A DNA stretch of 64,000 bases from a virus, in IMG/VR virus record IMGVR_UViG_3300032073_000011, positions 1 to 64,000 of that record. One strand, written 5' to 3'. The notes beneath the pieces were generated by a model that searched no databases, was not told the origin of the DNA, and saw only the letters and a program-made list of their open reading frames with translations. Within the stretch, counting starts at the first letter, position 1. Each line of letters starts with the position of its first letter. Positions 2,677 to 50,272 of the stretch are shown here, piece after piece. The position numbers and the translations under genes are program-made.

Positions 2677-3012
2677 ATGAATGTTATTTTAGATAATAAA
2701 GTCCTTCCACTAGAGATTATGTCTAGCCCTAATGCTATTAGTACTGGTATGATGGGCAGGGAATTTCTTAATGGTGGAATGCTTTTTATTTTTCCGGAAG
2801 TTTCAGAACGTTCTTTCTGGATGAAAGATTGTTTAATGTCTTTAGATATAATCTTTATCATTAATAATAAAGTTACTAAAGTACATAATAATTGTCCACC
2901 CTGTTATGAAAATAATTGTGAATCTTATAAAGGTATATCGGATAAAGTTTTAGAAGTTCCTTCTGGAAAATTTAATGTAAGTGAGGGTGATGTTTTAGAA
3001 TTTACTCAGTAG
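2677..3012 (+). CDS. DUF192 family protein
   Basis: 111 residues matching the small beta-barrel DUF192 family. Features are GMMGREFLNGGMLFIFP (24-40), the family signature FWMKDCLMSLDIIFI (47-61), a NCPPCYENNCESY cysteine cluster (72-84) and GDVLEFT near the end. Most cellular homologues are exported with a signal peptide; this copy has none, so it probably acts inside the cell or virion. DUF192 function is not established. One of few plus-strand genes; its 3' end overlaps the convergent DHH gene by 11 bases. Confidence 0.85.
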   Translation: MNVILDNKVLPLEIMSSPNAISTGMMGREFLNGGMLFIFPEVSERSFWMKDCLMSLDIIFIINNKVTKVHNNCPPCYENNCESYKGISDKVLEVPSGKFNVSEGDVLEFTQ

Positions 3013-4447
3013 CGTCTATATTTTCTTTAATTTTCTTAACCATTTCTTTCTGTACCCATTTTACAAATTCTACATATCTTGTTGGTTTGGCATCTGATTT
3101 TTTCTTGTAAGGTCCTTCTGGTTGTCTAGTTGCTCTACTAAAGAAATTTAACCCACTAATATTAGTTATACATTTGTGACCACCACTATTAGCTTGTATA
3201 ACATCCCAAGCTGGTACAGTTATCTTATCTAAAACTGCTTTTTGTTTTTCACTCAAATTGTCCCATGGTGTATCAATTATACTAACCGCCATATCATAGT
3301 ATTTAGAATCTGTTGATGGCATATTTTGTAAATGGTCTTTGTAGAGAGCGAATAAGTCTGAAGTTTTAAACCCAATACTTTCTCCTTCTGCTTTTGTCTC
3401 CCCTATTCTTTTAATAACAGAAACTGGTACTTGATGTTTTTTAAGTTGTGGTTCAACTTCTTTAAGTACTTCTTGTGCTATATCCCCTAAGTTAACACCT
3501 TTAAGAGCTCTGTCTTTCTTGAAGGGGTTACACGAAGCTTGTACAAGACCCATTGGCCATGCAACTACAAAAAAGTCAGCGTCAGGATAAATTTTAAATG
3601 GTGTATATCTATCATATGAACCTGGTTTAAATAGTCTACCACCACCATACTGTACTATTATATTACCATCTAGGTTTAGATTATTACTTTTTTGTTGTGA
3701 CTTTATGTATTCTGCTTGATTTTGTGCCATTTCTTCTGGTGAAGCAAATCCTTTTTCTTTTGCGTATGAAGTTATGTTTTGATATATGTTCATTAAGGAC
3801 GGTGAAGAATTCATAACTAAATGTTCTAAAAATCCTGGTTTGTTTTTGTAAGCTAATAATAATTTGTTGGTTAAAAGACCTAGCATCCATCTTTTTTCGT
3901 AAGTCTGGTCGCCAGATTCGAAATCTCTAATTAGATTCATTACTTGTTCTGGTTCAATATCGTGTTTTGCATAGTCCGCAGAATCTACAGTATTAATCAT
4001 CATTATATCTTCATCAGTGAAAATATCACTAGGACTTATAGTTTGTGAAATAGTTTCTACGTTTGAACGTGCTCCTCTAAATTGTGTTGCCGTGTCGTCT
4101 TCTACACCTGCTTGTGAATCGTGGTGGTCCGTATGAATTTTAAATATTGGTTTTCCATGTGCAAAATCTACTAGTACCGGCATTACATCCTCACTAGCTT
4201 GTGGTTTTTTTACTGAAAATTCTTTATCACCATATTGTATTACGTGGGTATCGATAACATCTATACCGTATTTTTCTAAATAATTTTTCATACCTAATGC
4301 TGATACAACACCATCTAAATCCTGATGGAAATATATCTCTGCTTTAGGGTATCTCTGAGCTAACTTATTAATATCTCTAATACCACCTTCATTTAAAAGT
4401 GATTTATTAATAAAATCTAATTGTTTTTCTGTTATCTCTATTTTCAT
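3002..4447 (-). CDS. DHH-family phosphoesterase with N-terminal tag
   Basis: 481 residues. Predicted metal-dependent phosphodiesterase of the DHH superfamily (nanoRNase, RecJ and pyrophosphatase relatives). Motifs are QDLDGVVSAL (D43, D45), VLVDFAHG (D94), TDHHD (D107, H108, H109) and VDSADY. A C-terminal DHHA1-like part contains GGHK. The first ~20 residues, MKIEITEKQLDFINKSLLNE, are not part of the DHH fold and match the N-termini of the lysozyme and the M23 peptidase in this window. Substrate unknown; nucleotide recycling or RNA end degradation is plausible. Confidence 0.85.
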   Translation of the reverse strand: MKIEITEKQLDFINKSLLNEGGIRDINKLAQRYPKAEIYFHQDLDGVVSALGMKNYLEKYGIDVIDTHVIQYGDKEFSVKKPQASEDVMPVLVDFAHGKPIFKIHTDHHDSQAGVEDDTATQFRGARSNVETISQTISPSDIFTDEDIMMINTVDSADYAKHDIEPEQVMNLIRDFESGDQTYEKRWMLGLLTNKLLLAYKNKPGFLEHLVMNSSPSLMNIYQNITSYAKEKGFASPEEMAQNQAEYIKSQQKSNNLNLDGNIIVQYGGGRLFKPGSYDRYTPFKIYPDADFFVVAWPMGLVQASCNPFKKDRALKGVNLGDIAQEVLKEVEPQLKKHQVPVSVIKRIGETKAEGESIGFKTSDLFALYKDHLQNMPSTDSKYYDMAVSIIDTPWDNLSEKQKAVLDKITVPAWDVIQANSGGHKCITNISGLNFFSRATRQPEGPYKKKSDAKPTRYVEFVKWVQKEMVKKIKENIDATE

Positions 4448-4452: not shown

Positions 4453-4460
4453 ATAAATAC
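4453..4460 (-). promoter_or_regulatory. Candidate phage promoter element GTATTTAT
   Basis: Minus-strand GTATTTAT ends 5 bases before the DHH gene start at 4447 and overlaps the lysozyme stop. It belongs to the recurring (A/G)TATTTAT series. Confidence 0.45.
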
Positions 4461-5026
4461 TACCCCAACCCGTTAACAAAGTGTTGGTATTCTTTTTCTC
4501 TTCTCTTTTTTAATCCTGGAAATTTACTACTAACTCTATACGTTTTAATTGTTTCTGCGGCTTTTTTATAATCGTTAGTTTCTAACACCCCTATACTTTT
4601 TAATAATGCTATTACATTCGACCTCCTTAATCCCCCAGAACCCCCATTATAAGATAATGATAATAAACTATCATACATATTTTGAGTTATGGGTACATAT
4701 ATACCTTGTTCTTCCCATTTTTTAAAAATTTTTCTTAGTCTGTCCGCATGGTAGTTGGAGTCTTCTCGTAATATCTTATTGGCTTCATCTTCACAGTTTA
4801 CACCGTCCCCTAATACATCACCCTCTTTTACCCCTTCTGTATGTCCATAACCTATTGTCCATTTACCATCCCCAATATTGTATGCTTTACATTTTAAACT
4901 CTCTTCATCTCTAATATGACTCCAATACCAATTTGAAGCTTTTAAATCAGAAGCTCTAACAAACTTAGAACTATCTAATTGTTCTGTTATTAATTTAAGT
5001 TGGTTTTCTGTTATTAATATACGCAT
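4460..5026 (-). CDS. GH24 (T4-type) lysozyme with N-terminal tag
   Basis: 188 residues. Peptidoglycan-cleaving muramidase: the core has DEESLKCKAY (catalytic Glu42), WTIGYGHT (Thr57) and TQNMYDSLLSLSYNGGSG with the usual C-terminal helices. The position equivalent to T4 Asp20 is Ile51, with Asp53 two residues on, so the aspartate may be shifted or dispensable. The lysozyme fold begins only near residue 35. The first ~16 residues, MRILITENQLKLITE, resemble the DHH and M23 N-termini, and there is no signal peptide. It may be an endolysin or a virion lysozyme; the tag favours the latter. Confidence 0.9.
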   Translation of the reverse strand: MRILITENQLKLITEQLDSSKFVRASDLKASNWYWSHIRDEESLKCKAYNIGDGKWTIGYGHTEGVKEGDVLGDGVNCEDEANKILREDSNYHADRLRKIFKKWEEQGIYVPITQNMYDSLLSLSYNGGSGGLRRSNVIALLKSIGVLETNDYKKAAETIKTYRVSSKFPGLKKRREKEYQHFVNGLG

Positions 5027-23896: not shown

Positions 23897-23904
23897 ATAT
23901 TTAT
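23897..23904 (+). promoter_or_regulatory. Candidate phage promoter element ATATTTAT
   Basis: Plus-strand ATATTTAT lies 19 bases before the GTG start at 23924, in the short divergent gap with gp46. A related ATATTTAA sits on the minus strand before gp46 at 23886-23893. Confidence 0.45.
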
Positions 23905-23923: not shown

Positions 23924-24649
23924 GTGAAAATTAGAATAACAGAAAATCAGTACACTAAATTAGTTAAGGAACAGAGGATTAGTATAGACAAAATTAAGAA
24001 AAATATTCCTGACCCACTAAAGAAAATAGCGGAAGCTATTATCAATAGATTAACTAACCCTAGTCCTGCTGATTATAAAGCATTACGTGAGTTATCTAGA
24101 AGTAGATTAGAAAAAGTTTTAAGTTATATTCCTTCTAAATACAAAAATAATGGTGATGCTCCAACTTTATACCCAATACTCACTTTACCAAAAAAAATTA
24201 ATAGTTGTTATGGGTATAGGACTGCTACTGGTACTAATAGAATGCACAGTGGTGTTGACTTGGATACAACTGATTTAAATGATGAACAACCCCTTATATC
24301 TACATGTGCTGGTATAATAAGTAAATCTAATGATGATACGGGGGGTGCTTGTGGTGGTTTTATAAAAATCAATTGTAACAATGGGGATTCTGTTGGTTAT
24401 TGTCATCTTAAAGTTGTTAATGAAAACTTATATGGTTTAAAAGTACCTAAAGGATTTCCTATTGGTGTGTCTGGAGGTGGGATGCATGACCACGGTACGG
24501 GTAATTCTTTGGGCCCACATTTACATTATATAATTTGGAAGGGTGGTAAAAAAGTTAACCCTATAAACGTAATGGATGGTGGACATACTATTCCTGCAAG
24601 TGGTAGTGAAAATAGAAAGGGTAAATACTGTGACCCTAACGTGAGATAG
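23924..24649 (+). CDS. M23 (LytM-type) peptidase with N-terminal tag
   Basis: 241 residues on the plus strand, starting at GTG (an ATG four bases earlier is out of frame and meets a stop). Zinc endopeptidase of the lysostaphin/LytM fold: CYGYRT, MHSGVDLD (H108, D112), GYCHL (H161) and GPHLHY (H199, H201). It would cut peptidoglycan cross-bridges. There is no signal peptide. The first ~16 residues, MKIRITENQYTKLVKE, match the lysozyme and DHH N-termini and precede a helical linker. A virion-borne wall-piercing enzyme is a good guess. It converges on the glycosyltransferase with a 14-base overlap. Confidence 0.92.
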   Translation: MKIRITENQYTKLVKEQRISIDKIKKNIPDPLKKIAEAIINRLTNPSPADYKALRELSRSRLEKVLSYIPSKYKNNGDAPTLYPILTLPKKINSCYGYRTATGTNRMHSGVDLDTTDLNDEQPLISTCAGIISKSNDDTGGACGGFIKINCNNGDSVGYCHLKVVNENLYGLKVPKGFPIGVSGGGMHDHGTGNSLGPHLHYIIWKGGKKVNPINVMDGGHTIPASGSENRKGKYCDPNVR

Positions 24650-25676
24650 TTTCAAAATAATCTCTAAAAATTTTTCCTTTATATTTTTCCAATTTACTAT
24701 AAAGTTCTCCGTCTTTTTGTTGCTTAATATCTTCCATCAATAAATCTATATCATTTTGTGTTTTAGGCATTAACCCAACTAAAACTTCTGTGGGTACTTT
24801 GGTGGGTGTTGTTTTCCAGTATCTACAAAGTTGGATGTACCCGAGATTTACCCCTATGTTTTTTGTTATTTTTATATTAGTAGAGAAATTTAAAAAAAAC
24901 AGTAGTAATTTTAGTAGTGGGTTTTGGATTACTTCTTTTATTTTGACTTTTATATGGCCCATAGTATCTTTTTTAAAATTTTCAAATTCTACTCTATTTA
25001 ACATTTTAACAAATTTATCTTGGGTGTTTTTAAAATCGTTTTGTGACGATAAGTATTTTTTTTGTAGAAGAATGGTGGACATCCCATTAAAGTGGTTATA
25101 TCGTATAGGAACTTTTTTTATTTGTTTTCCTAAATTTAATATTTTTGTAGAAAACATAACATCCTCAAACCCCCAGTAATAAGTCTCATCATAACCACCT
25201 ATTTCTAAAAATTTTTCTCTTTCTAAAACTACTGGAACTTCTTTTAAATATTTTTTTTGTTTTATTATTTTTAAGGGTTCAATATCACTATGTAACTCAG
25301 GACCCACCATATACACTTTATTAGTTAAGTGACTGGTTAAATTTTTAACCCAAGTATCATCTAATACTTCACAGTCATCGTGAAAAAGAGCGACATATTT
25401 ACTGTTTGAATTTTTTACCCCAATATTAAATGCTTTGGGTAGGTGATTTGGTGTGGATTTAATAATGTTTATTCTTTTGTTTACTACGTGCAAATATCCT
25501 TTATCTAAGAGAATATCTTTAACATTTTGGTTAGGACTATTATCGACCACTATTAACTCAATCTGCCACCCTATATGGTTAGTTGTAGATATAATACTAG
25601 ATAAGGTTCTTTCGGTTAAAAACTTATTATTCAATCCGTTTGTAATTACCACACAAGAGATACTATTATCTACCAT
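24636..25676 (-). CDS. Family 2 (GT-A) glycosyltransferase
   Basis: 346 residues. SCVVITNGLNNKFLTERTLS begins the nucleotide-sugar fold. IELIVVDNSP and PKAFNIGVKNSNSKYVALFH lead to the metal-binding DDCEVLDD (100-107). GGYDETYYWGFEDVMFSTKI is the acceptor-side motif. The C-terminal ~120 residues are lysine-rich and less conserved. It transfers a sugar to an unknown acceptor (virion protein, DNA base or host surface glycan). It overlaps the DegT aminotransferase gene by 7 bases, implying a joint sugar pathway. Confidence 0.9.
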   Translation of the reverse strand: MVDNSISCVVITNGLNNKFLTERTLSSIISTTNHIGWQIELIVVDNSPNQNVKDILLDKGYLHVVNKRINIIKSTPNHLPKAFNIGVKNSNSKYVALFHDDCEVLDDTWVKNLTSHLTNKVYMVGPELHSDIEPLKIIKQKKYLKEVPVVLEREKFLEIGGYDETYYWGFEDVMFSTKILNLGKQIKKVPIRYNHFNGMSTILLQKKYLSSQNDFKNTQDKFVKMLNRVEFENFKKDTMGHIKVKIKEVIQNPLLKLLLFFLNFSTNIKITKNIGVNLGYIQLCRYWKTTPTKVPTEVLVGLMPKTQNDIDLLMEDIKQQKDGELYSKLEKYKGKIFRDYFETISR

Positions 25677-26857
25677 CCTTCTTTTATTGTTCTAACAATA
25701 TATTCTTTATCTTCTTTATTTAACCACCACCCCACTGGTATACAAATCATTTCATTAACTAACTTATCTAGGTTGGGTAAATTTCTTTTGTATTGTTCCA
25801 CACATGAATGTTTATCATTACGTTCATGTATCCTACTAACCATAATCCCTTTAGACTCCATCATGTCCATAAATTTTTTTTGATTTTTAACCCTAATCGT
25901 ATAAATCCAATAAGAACATTCATTTTTATTTTTTATTAGTTTAACATTTTTTAAACCGTCCAATTCTTTATTGTAATATAAAGCATTTTGTTTGTGTTTT
26001 TCTAAAATAGTTTCTATGTGTTTAAAATTACACAACCCTATAGTTGCCGAAACATCATTCATATGAAACTTAAACCCCCATTCTGGTATATCATTTTCAC
26101 ACCTAAAGTCTTTTCGATTATCGTCCCTATCAATGCCATACCACCTTAAAAGTTTTGCTCTTTTATAGTATCTGTTATTAGGTAAAATCAAACATCCCCC
26201 ATCAACAGTTGTTAGGTGTTTAATTGCTTGAAAGCTGTAAATGGTAAAGGCATCATGTTTAGTATTTCCTAATTTTTTACCCTTGTACTCTGAACCAAAT
26301 CCGTGAGCACCATCTTGTATTATCACAGGCCTAAATCCGTATTTATTTTTACATTTTTGTTGTATTTTTTCTACCCTATCTAAATCAATAGCGTTACCAC
26401 CCCAATGTACCAACATAATTATTTTTGTTTTTTCTGATAATTGTTTCTCTAAATCATCTAAACACATATTACAAGTTTCAGGATTAACATCCACCCACTT
26501 TATATTTAAATTATTAGCTAATATAGGCCAATTAGTCGCTGTACAGGTTAAGGGACAACTTAGTACCTCATCACCATCTTGTAAACCAGGCCACTCCCCT
26601 AATTGTGGTGCATAATCAGATGAACTTTCAATGGTGTTTGTTGGGTTTTTTAATAAATGTAGTGTTAAGTGTAAAGCTGAGGTTGCGGAATTTAATGTGA
26701 CTAAATTATCAGTATTAAAATAATTTTTTAGTTTTTCTTCAAATTTTTTAACTTGTGGTCCTTCACCCACAAATCCAGACATTAGAACTTTACCCACTTC
26801 AGTAGGTGCATCTTCTGACATAAAAACTTTAAATAGGGGTATTTGGGTTTTATCCAT
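25670..26857 (-). CDS. DegT/DnrJ/EryC1/StrS sugar aminotransferase
   Basis: 395 residues, PLP-dependent. The features are VTLNSATSALHL (53-64), IIQDGAHGFGSEYKGKKLG (180-198), SFQAIKHLTTVDGG (208-221, with PLP Lys213) and FHMNDVSATIGL further on. These enzymes aminate keto-sugars for nucleotide-activated amino sugars. It overlaps the downstream glycosyltransferase gene by 7 bases; together they may decorate the virion or alter the host surface. ATATTTAA occurs before its ATG, a variant of the candidate promoter. Confidence 0.92.
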   Translation of the reverse strand: MDKTQIPLFKVFMSEDAPTEVGKVLMSGFVGEGPQVKKFEEKLKNYFNTDNLVTLNSATSALHLTLHLLKNPTNTIESSSDYAPQLGEWPGLQDGDEVLSCPLTCTATNWPILANNLNIKWVDVNPETCNMCLDDLEKQLSEKTKIIMLVHWGGNAIDLDRVEKIQQKCKNKYGFRPVIIQDGAHGFGSEYKGKKLGNTKHDAFTIYSFQAIKHLTTVDGGCLILPNNRYYKRAKLLRWYGIDRDDNRKDFRCENDIPEWGFKFHMNDVSATIGLCNFKHIETILEKHKQNALYYNKELDGLKNVKLIKNKNECSYWIYTIRVKNQKKFMDMMESKGIMVSRIHERNDKHSCVEQYKRNLPNLDKLVNEMICIPVGWWLNKEDKEYIVRTIKEGW

Positions 26858-26893
26858 AATTTAAATATAAAATATTATGGATAATAAATCAAA

Positions 26894-27226
26894 TTAAACT
26901 ACTCCTGGTCCGTTGTCTTCGTCTTTTGGTCTATTTTCTTCGAACCACTCTACCATTGCATTAATTGCCCATACTGACCCACTAGCTAACATACCGTCAA
27001 AAAATATACTAGTGTAAGGGATAAACGTCATGCTTTCTGTTGGGGAGTAAAACGTTAATGAGAAAAAGAATCCTACCCATGTAGATGTACACATCATACA
27101 TCCAAGTAAGTCACCAAAAAAAGTTGATTTTTTTGTTATCCATTCTCTTGTGGTGTCAAATATAGTACCAAATACTAGTATTTGGGACATTCCGTAAGCT
27201 GCTAAAATCCATATAAGTGTTTCCAT
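26894..27226 (-). CDS. Membrane protein, DUF1360-like
   Basis: 110 residues. A first membrane segment (LIWILAAYGMSQILVFGTIF) is followed by DLLGCMMCTSTWVGFFFSLT, matching the C..C...W.G pattern of DUF1360 proteins common in phages and Gram-positive spores. A further hydrophobic stretch and an acidic tail (ENRPKDEDNGPGVV) end the protein. Function of the family is not established. Confidence 0.7.
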   Translation of the reverse strand: METLIWILAAYGMSQILVFGTIFDTTREWITKKSTFFGDLLGCMMCTSTWVGFFFSLTFYSPTESMTFIPYTSIFFDGMLASGSVWAINAMVEWFEENRPKDEDNGPGVV

Positions 27227-27229
27227 AAT

Positions 27230-27676
27230 TTAATCTATGTATGTGTCGTTTAAGTTAGATGTTCTCATGTATTTTGTTCTTCTATTTACTGTTACGTTTT
27301 TGAAGTGTTCTAACACATCATCTTGTTCTTTTATTTTATTTTTTTGTTCATTTATTATAGTTTTTGACTCTACTAATTCTGACTTCATTTTTTCTAATTC
27401 TTCTATTAGGTGAGTATCTTTTACCTCTTTTGTTACTATTTTTTCTACTATAATTTCTTTTTCTACCGGTATCTCTTTTATAACTTCTTTTATTATTTCT
27501 TTTTCTACTGGTACTTCCTGTATTTGAGATTTTGGTAAAAATGGTGCTACTCCGTATTTATCCAATGTTAATCCGTCTTTTGCACACTTTACAATAAAAT
27601 CTGATGTATTGTCTATTTCATTTAATTTACAATATTCATCAAATTCTTTTTGTAGTGTTTTATTTATTTCAATCAT
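27230..27676 (-). CDS. Coiled-coil protein with VPVEKEI repeats
   Basis: 148 residues. The N-terminal ~55 residues are a small helical domain (LQKEFDEYCKLNEIDNTSDF). A repetitive Val/Glu/Lys/Ile segment (VPVEKEIIKEVIKEIPVEKE, about 58-82) then leads into a long coiled coil (LEKMKSELVESKTIINEQKN). The end is basic. Such repeats form extended rods. It overlaps the gp47 stop by 8 bases, so it may work with the recombination complex or simply be coexpressed. Confidence 0.75.
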   Translation of the reverse strand: MIEINKTLQKEFDEYCKLNEIDNTSDFIVKCAKDGLTLDKYGVAPFLPKSQIQEVPVEKEIIKEVIKEIPVEKEIIVEKIVTKEVKDTHLIEELEKMKSELVESKTIINEQKNKIKEQDDVLEHFKNVTVNRRTKYMRTSNLNDTYID

Positions 27677-28451
27677 TAGTTAAAATTTCTTTTTCTTTTT
27701 CTATATCATCAATATCTCTTATTCTAAAATTAAGATATGGTTGGGGATTATCAAGTGTAAAAAATTTATATTTTTCTGTCTCTACGTTGTACACTCCATA
27801 CCCATGATTCTTTATACTTTCTCCAAAATTTTGTATTATAGTAGAGCCTACCATATAAGCTTTTTTACCTCTAGGTATTTTAAAGGTTTGTCTTTTGTGT
27901 ATGTCCCCTGCGAATACAACATCACACCCATCAAACCTATCAACACTAAAACCATCTTCAAACACAAAACCAAAATCATTCGAAGCACCTTCTATTGGTC
28001 CATGGAATAACCCTATTTTATATTTGGTGGTATTGTCAGGTATATCAGGACTAACATTATGACTTCTCAAAGAATAGACACACCAAAGAATATTTTCGTC
28101 TTCGTAACACCCTTTATCTTTGTAATAAATGATATTTGGGTTGTTAAGACTTTCTACTATCGGTGAAATAGCGTCCATCCTATCCATATTATTTTCTAAA
28201 AAGTCGTGATTTCCTATAATATAAACACACTTACAGATTTTTGCTGTTTCTGTCATCACCCAAGACATTAGATTGATTAACTCTGGTGTCATTTGATTTT
28301 TAGAGTGTACAAAATCTCCGGTAAATACGATTCTATCGGGTTTTAGTTCTTTCCAATCTTTTAAAGCCTTTTCCAAAACTTTTTTATCTCTTTTATGTTG
28401 TTTATAAAGTTTTAAGTGTAAATCAGAATAATGTATTATTTTATTAATCAT
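27669..28451 (-). CDS. 47: Recombination nuclease subunit, SbcD/Mre11-like (T4 gp47)
   Basis: 260 residues, a metallophosphoesterase with the Mre11 motif order: YSDLHL (D10, H12), IVFTGDFVH (D46), YIIGNHDFLE, GLFHGP and FAGDIHKRQ. It is the nuclease partner of the gp46 ATPase. The capping C-terminal domain is short, as usual in phages. The start overlaps the stop of the ParB-like gene by one base. Confidence 0.9.
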   Translation of the reverse strand: MINKIIHYSDLHLKLYKQHKRDKKVLEKALKDWKELKPDRIVFTGDFVHSKNQMTPELINLMSWVMTETAKICKCVYIIGNHDFLENNMDRMDAISPIVESLNNPNIIYYKDKGCYEDENILWCVYSLRSHNVSPDIPDNTTKYKIGLFHGPIEGASNDFGFVFEDGFSVDRFDGCDVVFAGDIHKRQTFKIPRGKKAYMVGSTIIQNFGESIKNHGYGVYNVETEKYKFFTLDNPQPYLNFRIRDIDDIEKEKEILTND

Positions 28452-29251
28452 TACTTGTTTTTTATTTTATTTATTATTTCTGCCATACCAATATTTATAT
28501 CCCCATAGACCGTACCCGTAAAAAATTTCAATAATAGAGTTATAGCCCCTATAATTAATAAACCTATAAAATGTGTAGTTATGACATGATATGTGTATAT
28601 GGAAATAATGAGACCTATAACTATCATTCTGTAATTATAATATAGAAACATCAATGCACTATACATGAAATTTGCATTATCATATACCCAACCCAGTCCT
28701 TTTTTGGGGTGTATTTCTTGATTTGCTCTACCTCTAATGTCTGTTGTAAATGTAGCGAAAAAATATAGTGTAAAAGAAACTACTATAACTTCCAAAAACA
28801 TATACCAAAGAAAAAATATTATAGATGGTAATAGTGTTATAGGTATAGTACTAATACCGTCCCAAAGATTTGGCCATAATCCATCTAGTTCTTCTGGTAT
28901 ATTGTTAGTTTCTTTTTTATTTACTTTTACCATGACTGTAACTTCATGGTCTTCCCCATACAATTCTTTTAGTACTCTTACTCTATGGTTTCCATCAGCA
29001 GCTCTGTAAGGTTTACCATCCCAATCACCTTCATGGACCTCTATGTAACCATATTTTTCAGGGTTATAACCAAATTCTAAAATACTTTCTTTTATCTTTG
29101 TAAGTCTACTAGGTGTTGTGGTTTTTCTCCAAGCTCTTCTTAGTCTTGCTGACATAGATTCATCTAGAGTGTAACTCCAAGTATCTCGTATCTGACCAAC
29201 TTTTACTTTTTCAAGTTTATCGTATTCTATTAGTTCACCTATTTCTGCCAT
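28451..29251 (-). CDS. ParB/Srx-like domain fused to membrane segments
   Basis: 266 residues. Residues ~1-115 form a ParB/sulfiredoxin-like fold: KVKVGQIRDTW, SRLTKIKESILEFGYNPEKY and YRAADGNHRVRVLKELYGED, the GNHR loop being the family's nucleotide-binding signature. The second half carries three to four membrane helices (IPITLLPSIIFFLWYMFLEV, MFLYYNYRMIVIGLIISIYT, GLLIIGAITLLLKFFTG). Soluble ParB-like domains on a membrane anchor are unusual. It sits between the nuclease gene at 29251 and gp47 with one-base overlaps. Role unknown; tethering DNA or nucleotides at the membrane is speculative. Confidence 0.75.
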   Translation of the reverse strand: MAEIGELIEYDKLEKVKVGQIRDTWSYTLDESMSARLRRAWRKTTTPSRLTKIKESILEFGYNPEKYGYIEVHEGDWDGKPYRAADGNHRVRVLKELYGEDHEVTVMVKVNKKETNNIPEELDGLWPNLWDGISTIPITLLPSIIFFLWYMFLEVIVVSFTLYFFATFTTDIRGRANQEIHPKKGLGWVYDNANFMYSALMFLYYNYRMIVIGLIISIYTYHVITTHFIGLLIIGAITLLLKFFTGTVYGDINIGMAEIINKIKNK

Positions 29252-30015
29252 TAGTTCATTATTTTTAATATTTCATCTCTAAAATCATAACATTTAATAA
29301 TTTTATAAGTTTCGTTATTTTCATTAAACCACACAATGTAAGAGTCACCCAAGTCTAACTCCGTATTTCTTTCAACTATTAATTTATAAAAAGATAATTG
29401 TAGTGAATATGTATTTAATTCACAAACATCTAAATGACTTAAAGGTTCTTTAAATTGTTGCCATTTATTATTTTCTTTTATAGCTTTATTGGTTTTCCAA
29501 TCCCAAATTTCTAATTTTTGTGATTTTTCGTTATAGAATAATTGGTCAATCATTCCTGTAACACCCCACTCTTTATCTCCAACTACAACCTCTGCCCTTA
29601 CAGGTATTAATTTTCCAAATGATTTATTGTAAAAATCATCAAACATTTTTTTTAGTTTTTCTACCGCTTCTTTACATTCTAACATATTTTCTGTCCCACC
29701 CAAAGCTTCAGTAATTCTGTGTTCTGGAAATGGAAATAATTTGTTAGTTAAAAAGTTTTCTGCATATTCATGAAAAGCTGAACCTTTTTCACATGAAAAA
29801 TCTGCTTTATATTTCCACTCTTTTAAAATCTCTTCTTTTGTTATACCTCTTTCATCTGCCTTTTTTTTAGACCAATAGTCTTTGTCAAATGGGTGCTTAT
29901 ATTTACCTATTATTGAGGTTACAGATTTTGTTTTTACACCGTCCAAATAATAGATATGTTCCTTGTCATGAAACTTTATATTGTTAAATTTAGCTAACTC
30001 TCTAGTTATTTTCAT
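29251..30015 (-). CDS. PD-(D/E)XK nuclease (RecB/Cas4-like)
   Basis: 254 residues. GSAFHEYAENFLTNKLFPF supplies the early conserved H/E. VRAEVVVGDKEWGVTGMIDQ gives the catalytic Asp, and KLEIWDWKTNKAIKEN the D-x-K-T motif, in the order seen in RecB-type exonucleases. The C-terminal LSFYKLIVER segment includes the conserved Tyr/Lys region. It probably degrades or trims DNA in phage recombination. It shares a one-base overlap with the ParB-like gene. Confidence 0.85.
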   Translation of the reverse strand: MKITRELAKFNNIKFHDKEHIYYLDGVKTKSVTSIIGKYKHPFDKDYWSKKKADERGITKEEILKEWKYKADFSCEKGSAFHEYAENFLTNKLFPFPEHRITEALGGTENMLECKEAVEKLKKMFDDFYNKSFGKLIPVRAEVVVGDKEWGVTGMIDQLFYNEKSQKLEIWDWKTNKAIKENNKWQQFKEPLSHLDVCELNTYSLQLSFYKLIVERNTELDLGDSYIVWFNENNETYKIIKCYDFRDEILKIMN

Positions 30016-30016
30016 A

Positions 30017-30931
30017 TTATAATAATTTTATTTCTTTTAGGTTGTTTATACCACCTAGTTCTCCCACATCTTTATCTTGAGGTAATTTGATGAGTCTTAC
30101 CCTACCTGTTAATTTCCCACCATCTAATTTCCTATATAAATTTTGTGCATCTTTCCAAGCGTCTCCGTCTAAACAAATTATAACATTCTTTTTTGCGTTG
30201 TCATATAATTTACCCCAAAGTTTGTCACTAACACTTTTCCCTAATACTGGAATGGCGTTAGGCACAAAAAACATATCGAACACCCCTTCCACTAAATATA
30301 TATCTTCTTCCCAATTAATTAAATGTTCGTTGAATATAATTTTATCTTTTTCTGCTTCGGGATTTTTGTATTTATTTTTGTGTCCTACATAAGAACGAGA
30401 AACAAAATAATTAATTTCTTCGTTTTCATCGAAAGATGGGACTATTATTCTACCTCTATAAGGTCCTTCTGTTGTATACCCAATAGAGTATTTGGATATT
30501 ATCTCATCACTTATATTTCTTTTTCTTAAGTAATTATAAGCTTCTTTATATGGTATTGTTAATTTGTTACCTTTAGTAAATGAGATGTAGTGGTGAGGTA
30601 ATCTTACGTCTTCATATTTTCTTTTTTTAGTTTTAATGAAATCCCCACCTATTAGTTCCCAGGTGGATTTGTGTCTTCTATTCCCCCACTTTAAAAATAA
30701 TTTATTTAGGGACCCATGAGTAGCGTAAGTTTCTGAACATGCCCAACATTTATACACCCCTTGTTGATAGTTGACTTCGAAGTTTCCTTTTCCATCCCCC
30801 TTATCCAGCCCTTTTATGTCATACGAACATACGGGACAATCAAAGGAGATTTGTCCCTTATTAGGATAATGTGAGTTTATTTCCCCTAAAATGTCCTGTA
30901 ATAATTCTAATAATAGTGGTGAGTCTTCCAT
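30017..30931 (-). CDS. 61: DnaG-type DNA primase (T4 gp61-like)
   Basis: 304 residues. The N-terminal zinc-binding domain has CPVC (32-35) and CWAC (62-65). A TOPRIM-type core includes IISKYSIGYTTEGPYRGRII, VPSFDENEEINYFVSRSYVG, IYLVEGVFDMFFVPNAIPVL and NVIICLDGDAWKDA. It makes primers for lagging-strand synthesis. No helicase domain is attached, unlike T7 gp4. A CATTTAT variant of the promoter motif lies 3 bases before the ATG. Confidence 0.9.
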   Translation of the reverse strand: MEDSPLLLELLQDILGEINSHYPNKGQISFDCPVCSYDIKGLDKGDGKGNFEVNYQQGVYKCWACSETYATHGSLNKLFLKWGNRRHKSTWELIGGDFIKTKKRKYEDVRLPHHYISFTKGNKLTIPYKEAYNYLRKRNISDEIISKYSIGYTTEGPYRGRIIVPSFDENEEINYFVSRSYVGHKNKYKNPEAEKDKIIFNEHLINWEEDIYLVEGVFDMFFVPNAIPVLGKSVSDKLWGKLYDNAKKNVIICLDGDAWKDAQNLYRKLDGGKLTGRVRLIKLPQDKDVGELGGINNLKEIKLL

Positions 30932-30966
30932 ATGATAAATGTATGGAATTTTTTATGGGTAATCAA

Positions 30967-31563
30967 TTACCATAAATTATTTTGATTCATATGACCTAAA
31001 ACACATGTATAAGCATCACACATATCAAAATTTTCTTTTTTAAGGGTGTTATTTCTAGTATAAGCCCAAGTTAGGTGTGGTTCTTTGTTGGATACTTTTT
31101 GCCAAATAATATGTTTCTTATCACACCCCACTTCATATTTACCAAATAAAACTTTTCTACCTTTTATATTTTCTGCGACTAACTCTGGAAAAGCAAATTT
31201 TCTAGAGTTATAGGTAGAAATAAATGATGGTATAATACCTAATACATTATAAATGGTTCTAGTTATAAAAGAATTATACCTCATTAAGGTAGCTACTGTT
31301 CTAATATTATTAGAATTTATAAGTGGTTCTTCTATAATAATTTTAGTTATACCAATATTTTTATAATCTATTAGTTTGTCATGAAATTGGTCTGCTTTAA
31401 CTAACATTTCTTCTATCTTATCTTCTCTTTTGGGTTTTACTTTTGGTGAAAAGTGTGTTAGTTCTAGTAATTCTTGTTTTTGTATATCAAATAATGCCCA
31501 CCCTATTGTTTTGGTGGAAATATCCAGACCTAAAACTTTAGGTGCTTTTCCTATATTATTCAT
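30967..31563 (-). CDS. RuvC-like Holliday junction resolvase
   Basis: 198 residues, RNase H-type fold. PKVLGLDISTKTIGWALFD carries the first catalytic Asp (D14). GITKIIIEEPLINSNNIRTV carries the catalytic Glu, and the end NFDMCDAYTCVLGHMNQ the last acidic residues. It likely resolves recombination intermediates before packaging, replacing T4 gp49. The gene ends 35 bases upstream of the primase. Confidence 0.85.
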   Translation of the reverse strand: MNNIGKAPKVLGLDISTKTIGWALFDIQKQELLELTHFSPKVKPKREDKIEEMLVKADQFHDKLIDYKNIGITKIIIEEPLINSNNIRTVATLMRYNSFITRTIYNVLGIIPSFISTYNSRKFAFPELVAENIKGRKVLFGKYEVGCDKKHIIWQKVSNKEPHLTWAYTRNNTLKKENFDMCDAYTCVLGHMNQNNLW

Positions 31564-31603
31564 TCGTAATATTTTTTATTTTATATAATACTATAAAATA
31601 ATC

Positions 31604-32821
31604 CTAGAAAGTAAGTACTAGTTGTAAATTTACTGGTGTATTTTTTGCTTTTTCTATAGGTCTATCAGGAATAGCAACAGCTATCAATCTATTAGATGAA
31701 TCATACAGTCCAATTTCCGTTATATAAGAAGAACTAATATCAGATAAATCCCATATATTGTGTACATCACCAAATGGTGTTTGGAATTGTATCCCTGTGT
31801 TTTCTCCTCCCGCACCATAGTAAGGTGTTTCCGCTGGAGAAGCTGTTTGGTTTTCAGTAACATAAAATTCACCTGATGCTGCAACAATATCAACTACTAT
31901 TCTATATTCTTTTTCGAAAGAATAAAAACTACAATTTGCTGAACTAGCTCCAGTAAAATATATTTGAGTTGCTGCCGAAGCAAATGACATCGTATTAGCG
32001 TTAGGATTTCCTGAATGAAATGGGTAAGCTAAGGTACCACCAGTAGAAGCACCACTGTAATTAAAATTAGCTATAATACCAGGGTCTGTTATAACAGCAA
32101 ATCCTTTGTCTAAATAAGCTATACCCACTGGACGGTCTTGTACTTGTGCATAAGCTTTAGGTGAGTTTGCTGATGATACTGTTTCAGTAAATCTAAAATT
32201 GTCTACACCAGAATTAGGATACCCAGTAGGTGTACTTCCTGAAACCCAACCATTTGACCAACTTGTTATACTAGTATTTGATGCGGATAGGGATGGTCCA
32301 AGTATTTCATCACAAAATAAGAATGCCACATTTGTCGATGGTAGTCCTGGGTTACCTACTATATTACCTTCTATTTTTGGGTTACCAAAAAATTCACCTT
32401 CATCTGAATTATCTGATGATGTTGCTAATGGGTTATAATAAGAACTATATAATTCATAATTACCTTCCGACCCCGCTATATTTTTAGGTACCAATAATTT
32501 TAATGTTCTACCATCTATTAAAACTCCGTATTCACTTTTTGGTATTTCAGCAACAATTGCTTGTGCCTGAGAAAGTCCACTAAATCCTGTATTTGCCCAA
32601 GTTGATAGGAAAGCGTTTGTTGTTCCACTATTTGCTGGCATATTAAATGAAGAATATAGATTAGAAAAAGCTCTTCCGTTTGACGGGTTTCTTTGTATTA
32701 TTGTAAATGGTAAACTTGACCCACTTATATAGTTCCACCCTGTACTTGCGGAAGCATTATAAGGCACTAGAACTGCTTCTATCCTTTTTTCACTTGTTTG
32801 TATTTTTTTAAATTTTCCCAT
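31604..32821 (-). CDS. Virion protein with tail-fibre-type C-terminal domain
   Basis: 405 residues, Gly/Ser/Asn/Thr rich and beta-prone, without signal or membrane segment. The C-terminal ~55 residues, ISSSYITEIGLYDSSNRLIA onward, match the end of the 802-residue protein at 35966 and recall the ITEIGLYD motif of P2-type tail-fibre proteins. Likely a tail, baseplate or fibre component. It starts the structural gene block immediately downstream of a three-gene paralogous set. Confidence 0.8.
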   Translation of the reverse strand: MGKFKKIQTSEKRIEAVLVPYNASASTGWNYISGSSLPFTIIQRNPSNGRAFSNLYSSFNMPANSGTTNAFLSTWANTGFSGLSQAQAIVAEIPKSEYGVLIDGRTLKLLVPKNIAGSEGNYELYSSYYNPLATSSDNSDEGEFFGNPKIEGNIVGNPGLPSTNVAFLFCDEILGPSLSASNTSITSWSNGWVSGSTPTGYPNSGVDNFRFTETVSSANSPKAYAQVQDRPVGIAYLDKGFAVITDPGIIANFNYSGASTGGTLAYPFHSGNPNANTMSFASAATQIYFTGASSANCSFYSFEKEYRIVVDIVAASGEFYVTENQTASPAETPYYGAGGENTGIQFQTPFGDVHNIWDLSDISSSYITEIGLYDSSNRLIAVAIPDRPIEKAKNTPVNLQLVLTF

Positions 32822-32822
32822 T

Positions 32823-33254
32823 TTAAGTCCAACTTTTATAATTACTAGAATTTATACCCCTATCTAAAACTAAGGATGCTCTACCCGCAAAGTAAAGAGG
32901 TACAATATGAAAGGGACTACCCTCAGTTCTACCATTTGCGTTATTTTGAATACCTGGAAATACTTTATTTGTTGTTAGTGAGGGGTTACTTGTGTAACTT
33001 ACAAACATGTATTTACCTTTATCTGGTGGACTCATTACAGATATATATTTCGAAGGTGCAAAAATTGCGTAGTATTCACCTGGAGTACCGTAATATCTAC
33101 TATTTTCATTACTTTTACTCTGGTCTATAAATCTATTTCTAGCTCCCCTTATCCTTTGGTTATCCACATATAAAATAGCTTCTTTATTAACTAAAACACT
33201 ATTTTCAGTACATTTACTTTCGTTCCTATAAAATTCTAAAGCTTTTGTATCCAT
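32823..33254 (-). CDS. Small virion-type protein
   Basis: 143 residues, beta-rich (VLVNKEAILYVDNQRIRGAR, YYAIFAPSKYISVMSPPDKG, FHIVPLYFAGRASLVLDRGI), with no motif of known function. It is packed between two fibre-type genes with gaps of 1 and 5 bases, so a structural or assembly role is likely. Confidence 0.7.
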   Translation of the reverse strand: MDTKALEFYRNESKCTENSVLVNKEAILYVDNQRIRGARNRFIDQSKSNENSRYYGTPGEYYAIFAPSKYISVMSPPDKGKYMFVSYTSNPSLTTNKVFPGIQNNANGRTEGSPFHIVPLYFAGRASLVLDRGINSSNYKSWT

Positions 33255-33259
33255 TTTAT

Positions 33260-35131
33260 TTAATTTATTACTTGTCCGTTTGTAACTTTAAAGAATAGAG
33301 ATTTACCCCCACTTGTTTGCCACGGATTTGAACTGTTATGCCCTCTAGGGTCTTCGGAATAAGAACTTCTATCTCCACCGGCTTCACCATAAAAACGGAA
33401 TGTAGCGTTATCATACATTCTGTAATAGTTTTGAGCTGATACGTTTTTGTACGCGAAAGATGGTGATAATGCTGCTTTATTAAATTTAAATCTCACAGTT
33501 AATTTACATGGTACAGCTCCATTTGATTCGGAAGATTGTACTTCCCAACTTATAGGTATAGATATATTGTATGATGTTAATCCACTTCCACTTAGTCCTG
33601 CAATATAACCACCACTATACGTATCAGTTTTCCAGTAACTATTATTTTGTTTAGCTATGGTAATAAATATATTATCTGCCATTTTTGCTTGTCTTGTAAA
33701 TAGTGTATAGTATGGGTCGGTTTCTGCTACTACACTCCCCGCTACTGTACTTAACCCATTATCTTTAGATGGGTATAGTGAGAAGTTTGGTCCCCCACTT
33801 TTAAGTCCTTGTTCGTTAGTGTTCCAATTAGCTGTATATTCCATACTACCCATTAATAAACCAAATGTATCGGATGGGTGAGTTGTGTAAGTTATCTGAA
33901 CCCCTTTATTATTACTACTATTAATATCTATATACTCACCCTGACTTTGAGTTAATCTTTTTAACTTAATTGGGTAGTATGTTGGTGAAAAATTAGAATT
34001 TGTCACGTTAATCACTAACCTTGTGGTTGGTATTGTTACGTTTATATTTTTATAAGCTTCACTATCAAATCCTGCTGTGGTCATACTTACTTCTCTTTCC
34101 ATATCGATAGAACTTACAAACCCTATTAGGGGTTCTATTTGAGCAGCAAGATTACTTACCCAACCATTTTGAGTTGAGTTCATATTGAATGTTGGGTATG
34201 ACTGTCCGTTTTGATTCCATGTGGACATTCCACCACAATTTAAATAACCAACATCAAATGCTGCAAATCCAATCCCGTATCGACCAGCTCCTCTTAAATA
34301 ACGTGTACCGTTTTCATCTAACCCTGGTGAAAATACTAAAGAAAAAGGAGAAGGTAATTGTAAACCTTTTAAGTTTGTACCAGTAAAATCAATACCAGTA
34401 TGTTGTCCTTTATTCATAAATGCACCCCCAGCCATGGCAAGAGCATTATAATAACTACTATCTTTTAATGGTACTAATTTTATACCACTAGTAGAGAAAT
34501 TTGTACCATCATATATCTTAACAGAATCCACATAATCAATATATTGTCCTATACCATGTTCAGATAATTCACTTAAGAAATTAAGATATTCACTATTATT
34601 ACGGATGTTTAATGTGTTTTCAAAATAATTAGTTGTAGCGGTAGATATAGTAGTTGCAGCGGAAGATAAAACATCTTTATGGTCATCTATATATTTTGAA
34701 GCTAATAACTTACATAAAACATAATAGTCAGATAAATAAACGTCTATCTCTACTTCATTTCTATAATACTTAACCAAGTTATCAGTACCTTTAACACCAA
34801 CTGCAACATATTTTTTCTTCCTAGTAAACACTTTGTTTGATGATGGTGTTTGCCACACAGCATTATTTATGGTATATCCGTTACTTATGGAATTTTTATA
34901 ATTACTATCTTGACCTGTTGCGTCAGGTATGTAACCTAATTGTGCGGAATTATTAGCTGTACTACTACTATCACCGTGTGCTTGTGTATTTCTATAGTCA
35001 ATATTACCATCTGAAATAACAAATTTATCAAATAAACTTATAAAACTCCCTGTTGATAGCATCAATTGACGCCCTTGTTCAGTTAACTGAACTGTCAATG
35101 TTGTTGCTGTTTGTGCACTTATATAACCCAT
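33260..35131 (-). CDS. Fibre-type virion protein with shared N-terminal domain
   Basis: 623 residues. The first ~50 residues (LTVQLTEQGRQLMLSTGSFI then FDKFVISDGNIDYRN) share the pattern L(T/S)..GR..L/I...F.IGDS.IDY with the proteins at 35184 and 35966, marking a common attachment domain. The rest is glycine- and asparagine-rich beta sequence typical of receptor-binding or adhesive fibre parts. No enzymatic motif. No recognised chaperone domain at the C-terminus. Confidence 0.8.
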   Translation of the reverse strand: MGYISAQTATTLTVQLTEQGRQLMLSTGSFISLFDKFVISDGNIDYRNTQAHGDSSSTANNSAQLGYIPDATGQDSNYKNSISNGYTINNAVWQTPSSNKVFTRKKKYVAVGVKGTDNLVKYYRNEVEIDVYLSDYYVLCKLLASKYIDDHKDVLSSAATTISTATTNYFENTLNIRNNSEYLNFLSELSEHGIGQYIDYVDSVKIYDGTNFSTSGIKLVPLKDSSYYNALAMAGGAFMNKGQHTGIDFTGTNLKGLQLPSPFSLVFSPGLDENGTRYLRGAGRYGIGFAAFDVGYLNCGGMSTWNQNGQSYPTFNMNSTQNGWVSNLAAQIEPLIGFVSSIDMEREVSMTTAGFDSEAYKNINVTIPTTRLVINVTNSNFSPTYYPIKLKRLTQSQGEYIDINSSNNKGVQITYTTHPSDTFGLLMGSMEYTANWNTNEQGLKSGGPNFSLYPSKDNGLSTVAGSVVAETDPYYTLFTRQAKMADNIFITIAKQNNSYWKTDTYSGGYIAGLSGSGLTSYNISIPISWEVQSSESNGAVPCKLTVRFKFNKAALSPSFAYKNVSAQNYYRMYDNATFRFYGEAGGDRSSYSEDPRGHNSSNPWQTSGGKSLFFKVTNGQVIN

Positions 35132-35966: not shown

Positions 35967-38374
35967 TAAAAATCAATAGATATTGTAAATTGTTGAGTAC
36001 TTTGTCTTTGAATTGGTGACTGCAATTTTGCTATAGCCATCAAGTCTGGGAACCCATTCTCATTATCATATAAACCAATTTCAGTTATTCTAGGGTTAGT
36101 ATAACCATTAATAGCTGTATAATCTATCCATGTTGGGTTCGTAGAAGTTATATATTGTTGTGCTCCTAACTGTACCACATGTCTCATTTCATATATTGTT
36201 GCCATAATATCAGTTTCTAGACTACCATAAAAGAAATATTCGTCTCCAAAATTTAGCCCACCTAAATCCCCATTTTGTGGTATAGTAATATAATCGTTTA
36301 GACTATAATTTGTTGGTGTTGGGTTACAAGCTGGGTCAGTATCATTTCCGGTTAAGAAAAATGTTTGGTTTATTATATTCGTGGAAGCTATTTTAGTCCC
36401 TACTGTGTGTCCTGGGATGTCAGCTGTAATATCTTTCATGTTCCAACCATGTGGAGAAACTTTTTGTCCGTTTGGTACTATTTGCCATAATATATGTAAG
36501 GTGTCTGCCTCCCATCCGGTACCTGTTAACGCAAAATTATCTCTTAAGTAAGGGAATTCTGCACCTAAAGTGAATCCTATATCAAATGAGGTTTCACCTG
36601 GTTCCAAAGTTTCATTGACATAATAATTACAATGTAGCCCAGTAGTAACCCCGGCATTACCAACTGTATTATTTTCAAATAAATAAGTCATATATATTGT
36701 GTCACCTGGATTTTGTACCGCACCAAATGTAGCACATGCACCAGTAGGACATCCTGTACCAGCTGGAACTTTTTGTGTTCTAGGTGCTGGTAAAGTCCAA
36801 CTTCGATTAGACTTATAAGACATAGCTGCTAATAATTCTTCATCATCTATAACCACCATTTTATAATCTGGAAATACTTTTCCAACTCTATTAGGTGTTG
36901 CTCCACTACCAATATTATCATCCCATAAATGATAGTATCTTAAACCATCATCATTCATATTAATATTTTTACTAGATAACATTAAGTGTGGATTAATTGG
37001 GAAAACATCTGGATATGATTGTGGGTCAACATAAAAAGTTTGACCTAAAATTGTTTCATTACCAGCTCCAGTTCCAGTACCAGACCCCTGGGAACTCTTT
37101 TTATGCCACATTAACCAAGGTAAATGTAATTTAAAGTTTTTAGCTTCACCAATAGTAGTCATGGTGGTATCTTTCATAGCAAATTTTTCACCATAAAAAT
37201 CTGTGGTAGAATTATTTGTGTAATGAATAAATCCAGCACATTTCTGGTCTTCTGGTAAAACTACTCTTGTATTGTAAAAAGAATCAAAGTAAAAAGTACC
37301 ACCAATAACTGAAGGGTGGTAACTATCAGTAACTTGATTGGTGAAAGATTGTCCGTCATTACTTTCTAAACCAAAGTATTCTTTGGACCCACAATAACCA
37401 CTAGAACCATAATTATCTACCCCTACAAAAACTCCATTAGTTGGTGATGCTACTCCCGCTACTTGGTGTGTCCAGTTTATATTCATATTCCATATCTTAA
37501 CATCTGTATTGGATGTATCACAACAATTATTAAATGAAAGTGTGTCGTCACACCAACAATTAATTGTACTAGCGGTATTATATATACTAGTTGTGGTCAT
37601 AGGATTTGCGGATGATGCTGGATAAACTCTAACTCGAGTACAACCAGATTTCATTTGGGTTGTCACCCCACTAAAGTTTGGTATATTTCTATCTATAGTT
37701 AACCATAGTGAAGCATTAGTTTGTGCGGAATTACTATTACCCGCTGTTACTTGGTAAAATAAAGTGGTGGAGGCAGCACTATAGTTAAGTTGGGAACATC
37801 CTGCACCAGAAAACTCATAAGTGACAGAAATTAAATCCCCTATTACTGGTGAATATTGTTGTAAAGAACACATAGTTGTTGCTGAGACTAAATGTACTTC
37901 ATTTGACCCTGTCATTGATGACACACATAATTGCCAGTTTGATGATAGAGTATATGAACCTCCAGTATTAGCGGTAAAATATGTATATGAACCTTGTCCT
38001 GCTGCGGTATTATCAGTTGTTCCAGTAAAAAAACCTCTTAGAGTTGCTGTGTTATACACATCGTTTTGTTGGTGTTGTGGTATAGTAGGACCAAAAGTAT
38101 CTCCACTACTTAAACCACCTACTAGTGGGTATTTTACATGACCTTTATTTTTTTCAGGCATAGGATTTAGGTTCTGTGCATTGTGTTCTGCCTGTAATAT
38201 AAATAAACCTGGACTTGCTGCGGGTTGTTGTGTGTAACAATCATAGTTAACTTCACTATCACCTATTTGGAAAAGTCCTATATTTAATTTTCCTTCTGAT
38301 AGTTTTCTTCTACCGGCATCGGTAAGACGAGCGACTATCGCTCCTTGTGTACTGTTTTTAATTATATAACTCAT
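35966..38374 (-). CDS. Large fibre-type virion protein
   Basis: 802 residues. N-terminal domain AIVARLTDAGRRKLSEGKLN, FQIGDSEVNYD as in the two neighbouring proteins; C-terminal PRITEIGLYDNENGFPDLMA then FTISIDF as in the 31604 protein. It therefore carries both shared ends. Between them are beta-rich segments with cysteines (CWCDDTLSFNNCCDTSN). This looks like the full-length member of the family, with the others derived by loss of one end. Likely a tail fibre or baseplate appendage. Confidence 0.85.
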   Translation of the reverse strand: MSYIIKNSTQGAIVARLTDAGRRKLSEGKLNIGLFQIGDSEVNYDCYTQQPAASPGLFILQAEHNAQNLNPMPEKNKGHVKYPLVGGLSSGDTFGPTIPQHQQNDVYNTATLRGFFTGTTDNTAAGQGSYTYFTANTGGSYTLSSNWQLCVSSMTGSNEVHLVSATTMCSLQQYSPVIGDLISVTYEFSGAGCSQLNYSAASTTLFYQVTAGNSNSAQTNASLWLTIDRNIPNFSGVTTQMKSGCTRVRVYPASSANPMTTTSIYNTASTINCWCDDTLSFNNCCDTSNTDVKIWNMNINWTHQVAGVASPTNGVFVGVDNYGSSGYCGSKEYFGLESNDGQSFTNQVTDSYHPSVIGGTFYFDSFYNTRVVLPEDQKCAGFIHYTNNSTTDFYGEKFAMKDTTMTTIGEAKNFKLHLPWLMWHKKSSQGSGTGTGAGNETILGQTFYVDPQSYPDVFPINPHLMLSSKNINMNDDGLRYYHLWDDNIGSGATPNRVGKVFPDYKMVVIDDEELLAAMSYKSNRSWTLPAPRTQKVPAGTGCPTGACATFGAVQNPGDTIYMTYLFENNTVGNAGVTTGLHCNYYVNETLEPGETSFDIGFTLGAEFPYLRDNFALTGTGWEADTLHILWQIVPNGQKVSPHGWNMKDITADIPGHTVGTKIASTNIINQTFFLTGNDTDPACNPTPTNYSLNDYITIPQNGDLGGLNFGDEYFFYGSLETDIMATIYEMRHVVQLGAQQYITSTNPTWIDYTAINGYTNPRITEIGLYDNENGFPDLMAIAKLQSPIQRQSTQQFTISIDF

Positions 38375-38391
38375 AGTTTTTTACTTTATAC

Positions 38392-38399
38392 ATAAATAC
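38392..38399 (-). promoter_or_regulatory. Candidate phage promoter element GTATTTAT
   Basis: Minus-strand GTATTTAT, followed by GTATAAAG, lies 17 bases before the 38374 ATG, in the 42-base gap after the 38417 stop. Confidence 0.45.
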
Positions 38400-38416
38400 A
38401 TTTTATTTCAAAATGT

Positions 38417-41974: not shown

Positions 41975-41987
41975 TATTTATATATTT

Positions 41988-45911: not shown

Positions 45912-45916
45912 AACTT

Positions 45917-48900: not shown

Positions 48901-49108
48901 CATTACTTAAAGACTCTAGGGTTATTGGTGTTGAGAATGTCCCTAAATTATATTCTGGTGTGTTGGGTTGGTTGTATGAAGGTTGTGTGTAAAAATTACC
49001 TAGGGTCATTTGCTGTGAACCCATAAATTGATTTCCAACAAGAAAATCACTAAAGGTATCCCCTCCGTTATTAGGGGCCGGTGGATATCTAAATCGATTA
49101 CTAGCCAT
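45917..49108 (-). CDS. Large virion or baseplate-type protein
   Basis: 1063 residues. A helical segment (YRRILLNTAYLFKSKGTRKS, then IEFLLTLLGAPEALVEFNEY) resembles a motif seen in large tail or baseplate proteins of marine T4-like phages. The N-terminus is Pro/Asn rich and the C-terminus is a glycine/serine run (GGRSTGGGMSSGGGGY). No signal peptide or enzymatic motif. Its position within the block suggests a baseplate wedge or tail-associated role. Confidence 0.75.
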   Translation of the reverse strand: MASNRFRYPPAPNNGGDTFSDFLVGNQFMGSQQMTLGNFYTQPSYNQPNTPEYNLGTFSTPITLESLSNESLALAQKLTSNSLEVFVNNDMSEISSFVLYGSLKKRLAVATQNVVNFFPAALFVDGVNINLVSGNTTAYDILYSLSTEETTFKTNVNTLSNPFSLEFTTNGDLLTGAISKEQILNNFNTFGVSADTLLKIADGTVSPIRNITQHFKKYALSFSGQIGEKEYRIKEFKPQTTTTDYIEFTVKGNPFNLPLTGGTIVTSTIETFYIRPTQNQTEEEFKNLGNVEKFLVNRDITPIYTSIFQVVKETTSGVKYYDKVKQTWPLEDNVNIDIDSDRYTNYLIKLADLGDEIDREKTNLVSRFLTSPQLKEFDGTNQYIEKTLQIYGRSFDNIKTFVDGIAYMTNVSYDGKNNIPNELIKNFAKTLGWSTPSTLDNTTFLDSVLGVNTPEYSGTSVSQTPAELDIELYRRILLNTAYLFKSKGTRKSIEFLLTLLGAPEALVEFNEYVVIAGAPINMNPGMRFEWSKGAAGEVASYQKIQNKFDYQWEKISGGSYTTETLNYSIPFNQYYISTGTTFNPFVLSDYPIDTQGYPTKPRFTESYFFQRGAGWFEMTEEHKSDLVLNLSASTLTGCTPNTVTKYAEFTWGGFWTMGQYSNLVKAPYLDRFRRFPHMSFGFGLTRINDDKKSWVLQEGTQYRDYSFNNRDAYYQTQSEKLVLNVKNVDLSLNIGQGLTYDVWQQSVKSDCFFSGGTLPSPYPRPGGVWDSTNPKINAKTLDFKTFKNHFWKVFIDAKNRMTINDGKTGGYPTLQQIYLEYLNKNCGENNQYTYQKMIDYTQALGDYWIKIVEQMLPTTTLWTSGVKVENSAFHRDKFVYKCFTVSGDPLQSVYSMTFTTSASGYTGYPWPLFSNSARMMSMPTPPQSGTTYYDNLFSGSSTIPLSSYATSYNINNQGRFIGSPLLSKETNKLANSFQTNRTKFTSKAVFTKKGSTDNLLCIKGLKELGFDDLSWLENYTLTPTDNIQTGRRGIGSSINTSRISNSSGGRSTGGGMSSGGGGY

Positions 49109-49113
49109 AATTA

Positions 49114-50034: not shown

Positions 50035-50037
50035 ATT

Positions 50038-50259: not shown

Positions 50260-50272
50260 TACTTATTTTATA

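Follow-up and report, generated by a model that had tools for sequence, protein, structure and literature searches.

We propose that the short peptide opening an M23 peptidase gene of an uncultured phage is probably a capsid targeting sequence (a propeptide) of the T4 type, which would load late proteins into the prohead and be removed by the S77 prohead protease. By computation, we observe a tag that ends at a sharp boundary, is restricted to phages, is linked to S77 and gp23, and precedes cargo that has been exchanged. We read the tag as a capsid targeting sequence because its end is the motif of the prohead protease gp21 of phage T4, which cleaves after L/I-x-E (PMC9026906), and we take the prohead to be its likely target because tag-bearing records have S77 and gp23 either together or not at all and a site in gp23 resembles the tag. 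Relative to the capsid targeting sequence of T4, the breadth and the exchange of the cargo are new and notable.

The window, i.e., the whole stretch of DNA that was analysed, covers 64 kb of an IMG/VR virus record of 102,192 bases. The record is a fragment of a T4-related contractile-tailed phage, with a tail sheath gene just beyond the window. The features are as follows (a slash marks a predicted cut).

23924..24649, plus strand: tagged M23 (LytM-type) peptidase gene; PF01551 at residues 106-213, E 3.3e-12
23924..23971, plus strand: N-terminal tag MKIRITENQYTKLVKE of the M23 peptidase; predicted cut after Glu16 (V-K-E/Q)
23898..23904, plus strand: promoter-like element TATTTAT upstream of the M23 gene; elements of this kind also precede virion genes
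4460..5026, minus strand: tagged phage lysozyme (GH24) gene; PF00959 at residues 41-179, E 3.1e-21
4982..5026, minus strand: N-terminal tag MRILITENQLKLITE of the lysozyme; predicted cut I-T-E/Q
3002..4447, minus strand: tagged gene for a DHH-domain protein; PF01368 at residues 38-134, E 0.0015, under the family cut-off
4388..4447, minus strand: N-terminal tag MKIEITEKQLDFINKSLLNE of the DHH protein; predicted cut L-N-E/G
Outside the window, record positions 91546-92415 (minus strand), 93361-93759 and 93764-94519: further tag-bearing proteins

The earlier note placed a copy of the tag, ending VKE, at the GTG start of the plus-strand M23 peptidase, and both the open reading frame and an orthologue confirm it. 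The translation of the frame opens MKIRITENQYTKLVKEQRISID, and the metal-site motifs HxxxD and HLH can be read directly from the sequence. L003, a contig of 128 kb, encodes the orthologue, which is 59% identical and has ATG at the position of the GTG codon; the first ten residues of the two proteins are identical and the stretch upstream is nearly so, and we therefore regard the GTG start as correct. The lysozyme frame opens MRILITENQLKLITEQ, and all three tags in the window end in hydrophobic-x-Glu. The DHH match is weak, and tagged DHH homologues are present in many large phage contigs. The possibility that the N-terminal residues are a normal part of each enzyme family was checked against Pfam. 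The three domains begin at residues 106 (M23), 41 (lysozyme) and 38 (DHH), after the tag in each case, so the tag is not part of the enzyme domains; for M23 in particular, membership of the first 16 residues in the family was not borne out. For the M23 protein, AlphaFold with an alignment of two sequences gave a model that had a mean pLDDT of 32 and was unusable.

The count of three copies given in the earlier note was too low, since a search beyond the window brought the total in the record to at least six, three of them outside the window. Its three transcription units are likewise not established: the lysozyme and DHH genes are adjacent on one strand, 12 bp apart. One of the outlying proteins (record 91546-92415, minus strand; L002:7546-8415) lies near the tail sheath gene, carries an FDWDDN motif that makes it HAD-like, has no Pfam match, and is tagged in every relative seen. 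A loose regular expression for the core of the tag had four N-terminal matches in the 102-kb record, with about 0.12 expected by chance, and three matches elsewhere in 33,270 residues. A DNA pattern for the exact tag had no match in the same record because the M23 gene has a GTG start and the sequences of the remaining copies diverge from it.

The tag occurs in three lengths, of about 11 residues (MKELIRHILKE), about 16 residues (MKIIITESQYKxLLxE) and 22 residues (MKKVIRLTESDLTRIVKRVIKE), and the shortest form (MKELIRHILKE/E) is similar to the end of the longest. For the 22-residue form, 69 of 80 families (86%) have Glu at one position and 67 have hydrophobic-x-Glu, compared with 1.9% per position downstream; information content is at background within two residues past the terminal Glu. 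The earlier note was right to single out this end, a conserved terminal motif after which conservation ceases. For the 16-residue form, 79 families have 47 hydrophobic-x-Glu cells at registers +12, +13, +14 and +17, with 2.6% per position otherwise. About 60% of these families have the motif at the usual registers and about 40% lack it, so a second site is not found in every tag. The core expression demanded a Glu within the core and stopped ahead of the last Glu, and thus only the second, terminal Glu is independent evidence. Across whole genomes, the pattern [ILV][ILVF]xE was enriched at residues 6-26 relative to residues 46-66, both in phage immuto and in six of the nine tag-bearing records that were tested (p from 0.01 to 1e-6).

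The tag is restricted to phages. In IMG/VR, at least 120 stretches matched a strict DNA pattern encoding MKI-x-ITE-x-Q[YF]xxL, and a control pattern of the same composition with Ile and Thr swapped had 0 matches. Contigs of 85 thousand prokaryotic species genomes (257 Gb) yielded only two matches, L358 (JAKPTO010000039.1) and L359 (NVTD01000021.1, labelled Wolfebacteria), and these are perhaps phage contigs binned into metagenome-assembled genomes. A tblastn search with 20-22-residue tags, which is insensitive for such short peptides, found no match in cultured phages, and no description of the tag peptide strings was found in the literature searched.

About 150 protein families with no other common sequence carry the tag. 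From the matched proteins, together with the genes of several large relatives, we collected 456 tag proteins, and BLASTP clustering beyond residue 25 placed these in 166 families, a few of which are chance matches. The sole common part of a 122-member alignment was MKIxITESQLxxL, at the N-terminus. Most tagged families have no recognisable domain. The recognisable cargo includes wall-related proteins (GH24 lysozyme, M23, Hydrolase_2, GH19, SLT and PG-binding) as well as tRNA nucleotidyltransferase, sigma factor, HD-domain and pterin dehydratase proteins. The several peptidoglycan hydrolases (lysozyme, M23, Hydrolase_2, GH19 and SLT) are what would be expected if the tag were an export or membrane signal that takes such enzymes to the periplasm for lysis. 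However, the tag has no long hydrophobic core, has conserved charged residues, and is also found on DHH, tRNA nucleotidyltransferase, sigma-factor and HD-domain proteins, and we regard a role in export as very unlikely.

Could the tag have been shared by descent, through paralogues, or through functionless tag DNA spread by recombination? Some tagged families do form local clusters of paralogues. However, different folds follow the tag, and two unrelated kinds of wall hydrolase alternate behind it in one slot: the position beside the DHH gene is occupied in relatives by a GH24 lysozyme or by an unrelated SleB-like hydrolase, always behind the tag, and the lysozymes in this slot are down to 29% identical. 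Synonymous codons are also near the expectation from codon usage. Codon identity between tag copies was 0.47 in the window record (0.54 expected) and 0.53 in a 304-kb relative (0.46 expected). We therefore rejected recent copying of tag DNA, and we give descent almost no weight. The earlier note had considered descent of the domains a poor explanation of the sharing, and this is upheld, as the carriers have nothing else in common and the tag lies outside all of the enzyme domains. Its suggestion of mobile reuse of a targeting signal stands in part: the signal is reusable and hydrolases are exchanged in a slot, but the synonymous-site comparison that it proposed gave no sign of recent mobility at the DNA level. 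The copies are old or convergent, and maintained through selection on the peptide. The note named no target for the signal, and our evidence indicates the prohead. The location of the tag at the start of coding regions would also suit an mRNA or translation-start element, with selection on nucleotides and not on the peptide. Synonymous variation is about as expected while the amino acids are kept, and internal and C-terminal tags exist, which makes such an element highly improbable, on a par with descent.

S77 and gp23 were found together or not at all. Both were present in 15 of the tag-bearing records searched, neither in 9, and one only in 0; S77 was therefore present in 15 of 15 tag-bearing records containing gp23. 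The His, Ser and Asp columns of the S77 enzymes are conserved; in G009 the S77 gene lies at L313:10869-11570 on the minus strand. Neither gene was found in the window record, a fragment that lacks the head module, and for this reason the link is drawn from relatives such as G009 (210 kb), the nearest near-complete relative (DHH protein 89% identical, sheath 69%). The gp23 propeptide of G009 ends LYENQATNLINE/A, at a predicted cleavage site whose Glu-Ala pair is aligned with E65/A66 of T4, and the site shares the layout of the tag (ITENQYTKLVKE). When internal windows were scored with a position-specific matrix (PSSM) of the tag, the gp23 site was among the top ~0.2% or better, ranking 4th in the record G002 and 3rd of 40,867 in phage immuto. 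In the jumbo group its rank was 47-85 among 45-84 thousand internal windows, a moderate resemblance.

An alternative to a protease propeptide is that the tag serves only to dock proteins to a phage assembly (the prohead core, the tail or a replication compartment), with hydrophobic-x-Glu as part of a binding helix. The many 16-residue tags without a second hydrophobic-x-Glu would be consistent with this, as would the tags found internally and at C-termini; for example, a small acidic tagged protein near the tail-sheath gene has an N-terminal tag and, in several relatives, a second tag at the C-terminus. However, a binding helix alone does not explain why conservation ceases directly past the Glu in 86% of the 22-residue families, and both the presence of S77 in every record holding a head module and the match of the tag to the gp23 site also argue against docking alone. 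We consider this alternative unlikely.

The promoter-like element TATTTAT precedes the M23, lysozyme and DHH genes. It lies upstream of 3 of 4 tag genes in the window record, compared with 19 of 91 others (p=0.038), and is enriched before tag genes in four relatives as well (p values of 0.018, 0.004, 0.002 and 0.006). It is also found ahead of the sheath, prohead protease and terminase genes. Tag genes showed no clear upstream enrichment of TATAAAT, the late promoter of T4. At 23898-23904 in the window, and ahead of many genes in G000, G009 and G006, the corresponding 8-mer is TATTTATA; among upstream 8-mers it ranks first in G009 and near the top in G000 and G006, and it precedes virion genes. 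It is likely a phage late promoter distinct from that of T4 (TATAAATA).

If the tag is a capsid targeting sequence, then the tagged proteins would be produced late, alongside virion parts, and the amphipathic N-terminal peptide would dock them on the core or scaffold of the prohead during head assembly. The S77 (gp21-type) protease would then cut after the terminal hydrophobic-x-Glu, possibly with a second cut after [I/L]-[T/S]-Glu within the tag, and the mature proteins, freed inside the head, would travel with the DNA and be delivered to the next host cell. We infer the docking, cleavage, packaging and injection from sequence. The cargo of the phage in the window would include two peptidoglycan hydrolases (M23 and lysozyme), the DHH protein, the FDWDDN-type (HAD-like) protein and the small acidic protein.

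Internal proteins of T4 carry N-terminal propeptides of 10-19 residues, the capsid targeting sequences, which direct them to the core (PMC9026906). Ten residues are sufficient in IPIII; residues 4 and 7 are important in targeting, and residues 8 and 10 in cleavage (PMC9026906). The capsid targeting sequence is the sole common sequence of T-even internal proteins (PMC3012670). Like those of IPI, IPII, IPIII and Alt, the tag is a short N-terminal peptide on unrelated carriers, ends in hydrophobic-x-Glu and has a wide cargo; the genomes that carry it, or their relatives, also encode a gp21/S77 protease and gp23. The T4 sequence is MKTYQEFIAE, with which both ipII and ipIII open in the sequences that we read; it shares the layout MK...hydrophobic-x-E with the tags but lacks their extra [I/L][T/S]E core, and the peptides are too short and diverged for homology to be assessed. 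T4 has about four such proteins, whereas the four largest records have roughly 15-25 core-tag copies per genome, and wall hydrolases are among the tag cargo, unlike that of T4. Alt undergoes processing at its two ends (PMC5694885), which resembles the tags at both ends of the small acidic protein.

The giant phages phiKZ and SPN3US also have inner-body or ejection cargo in a large head, trimmed after Glu by a gp21-related protease (S80), and gp53 and gp54 of SPN3US have an identical 15-residue N-terminus (PMC5694885). Their propeptides, however, are mostly 100 or more residues long with the motif A/S-x-E, and the tag-bearing phages instead have T4-type S77 and gp23. Among the best matches, the nearest cultured head module is that of Flavobacterium phage immuto (NC_055915), with S77 and a gp23 that has ILENQAKQIVSE/A; its core protein has FIAE/A, as in T4. 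The core expression found no tags with an ITE or LTE core in immuto, despite its S77 and gp23.

Should the tag prove to be a capsid targeting sequence, it would mark which of the many uncharacterised proteins of large phages ride in the virion and enter the host, numbering about 20 per genome in the largest records and, in a small sample, about 150 families. It would also supply a short peptide with which foreign proteins could be loaded into such heads. The tag further shows that phages swap wall-hydrolase modules behind a fixed targeting signal. We think it more likely than not that, in a large group of uncultured phages related to T4, one address peptide in three lengths loads dozens of exchangeable proteins per virion, including several kinds of wall hydrolase, RNA enzymes and possibly a sigma factor. 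If so, the injected proteome of uncultured phages could be read from sequence alone.

Several other records are of interest. G002 (IMGVR_UViG_3300032296_003307, 269 kb) has two complete head modules, at 25030-34976 and 228247-237947, each with terminase, portal, S77 and gp23; one is immuto-like and the other of the jumbo type, and the record appears to be a chimeric assembly or two joined phages. G006 (36410-56302) and G007 (219063-280204) contain arrays of small proteins beginning MKELIRHI[LI]KEE, which seems to be the tag in its shortest form. Lastly, a 484-kb uncultured phage (L356, LR756508.1) has variant N-terminal tags, including MKLTERKLRNLVKEVLKE and MKISEQRVRNIIRKELKSLVE, at 429-863, 1149-1433, 2782-3048 and 37279-37976, near a gp23 with ILLENQYQQLLKE/A, and these variants may represent a wider superfamily of tags in huge phages.
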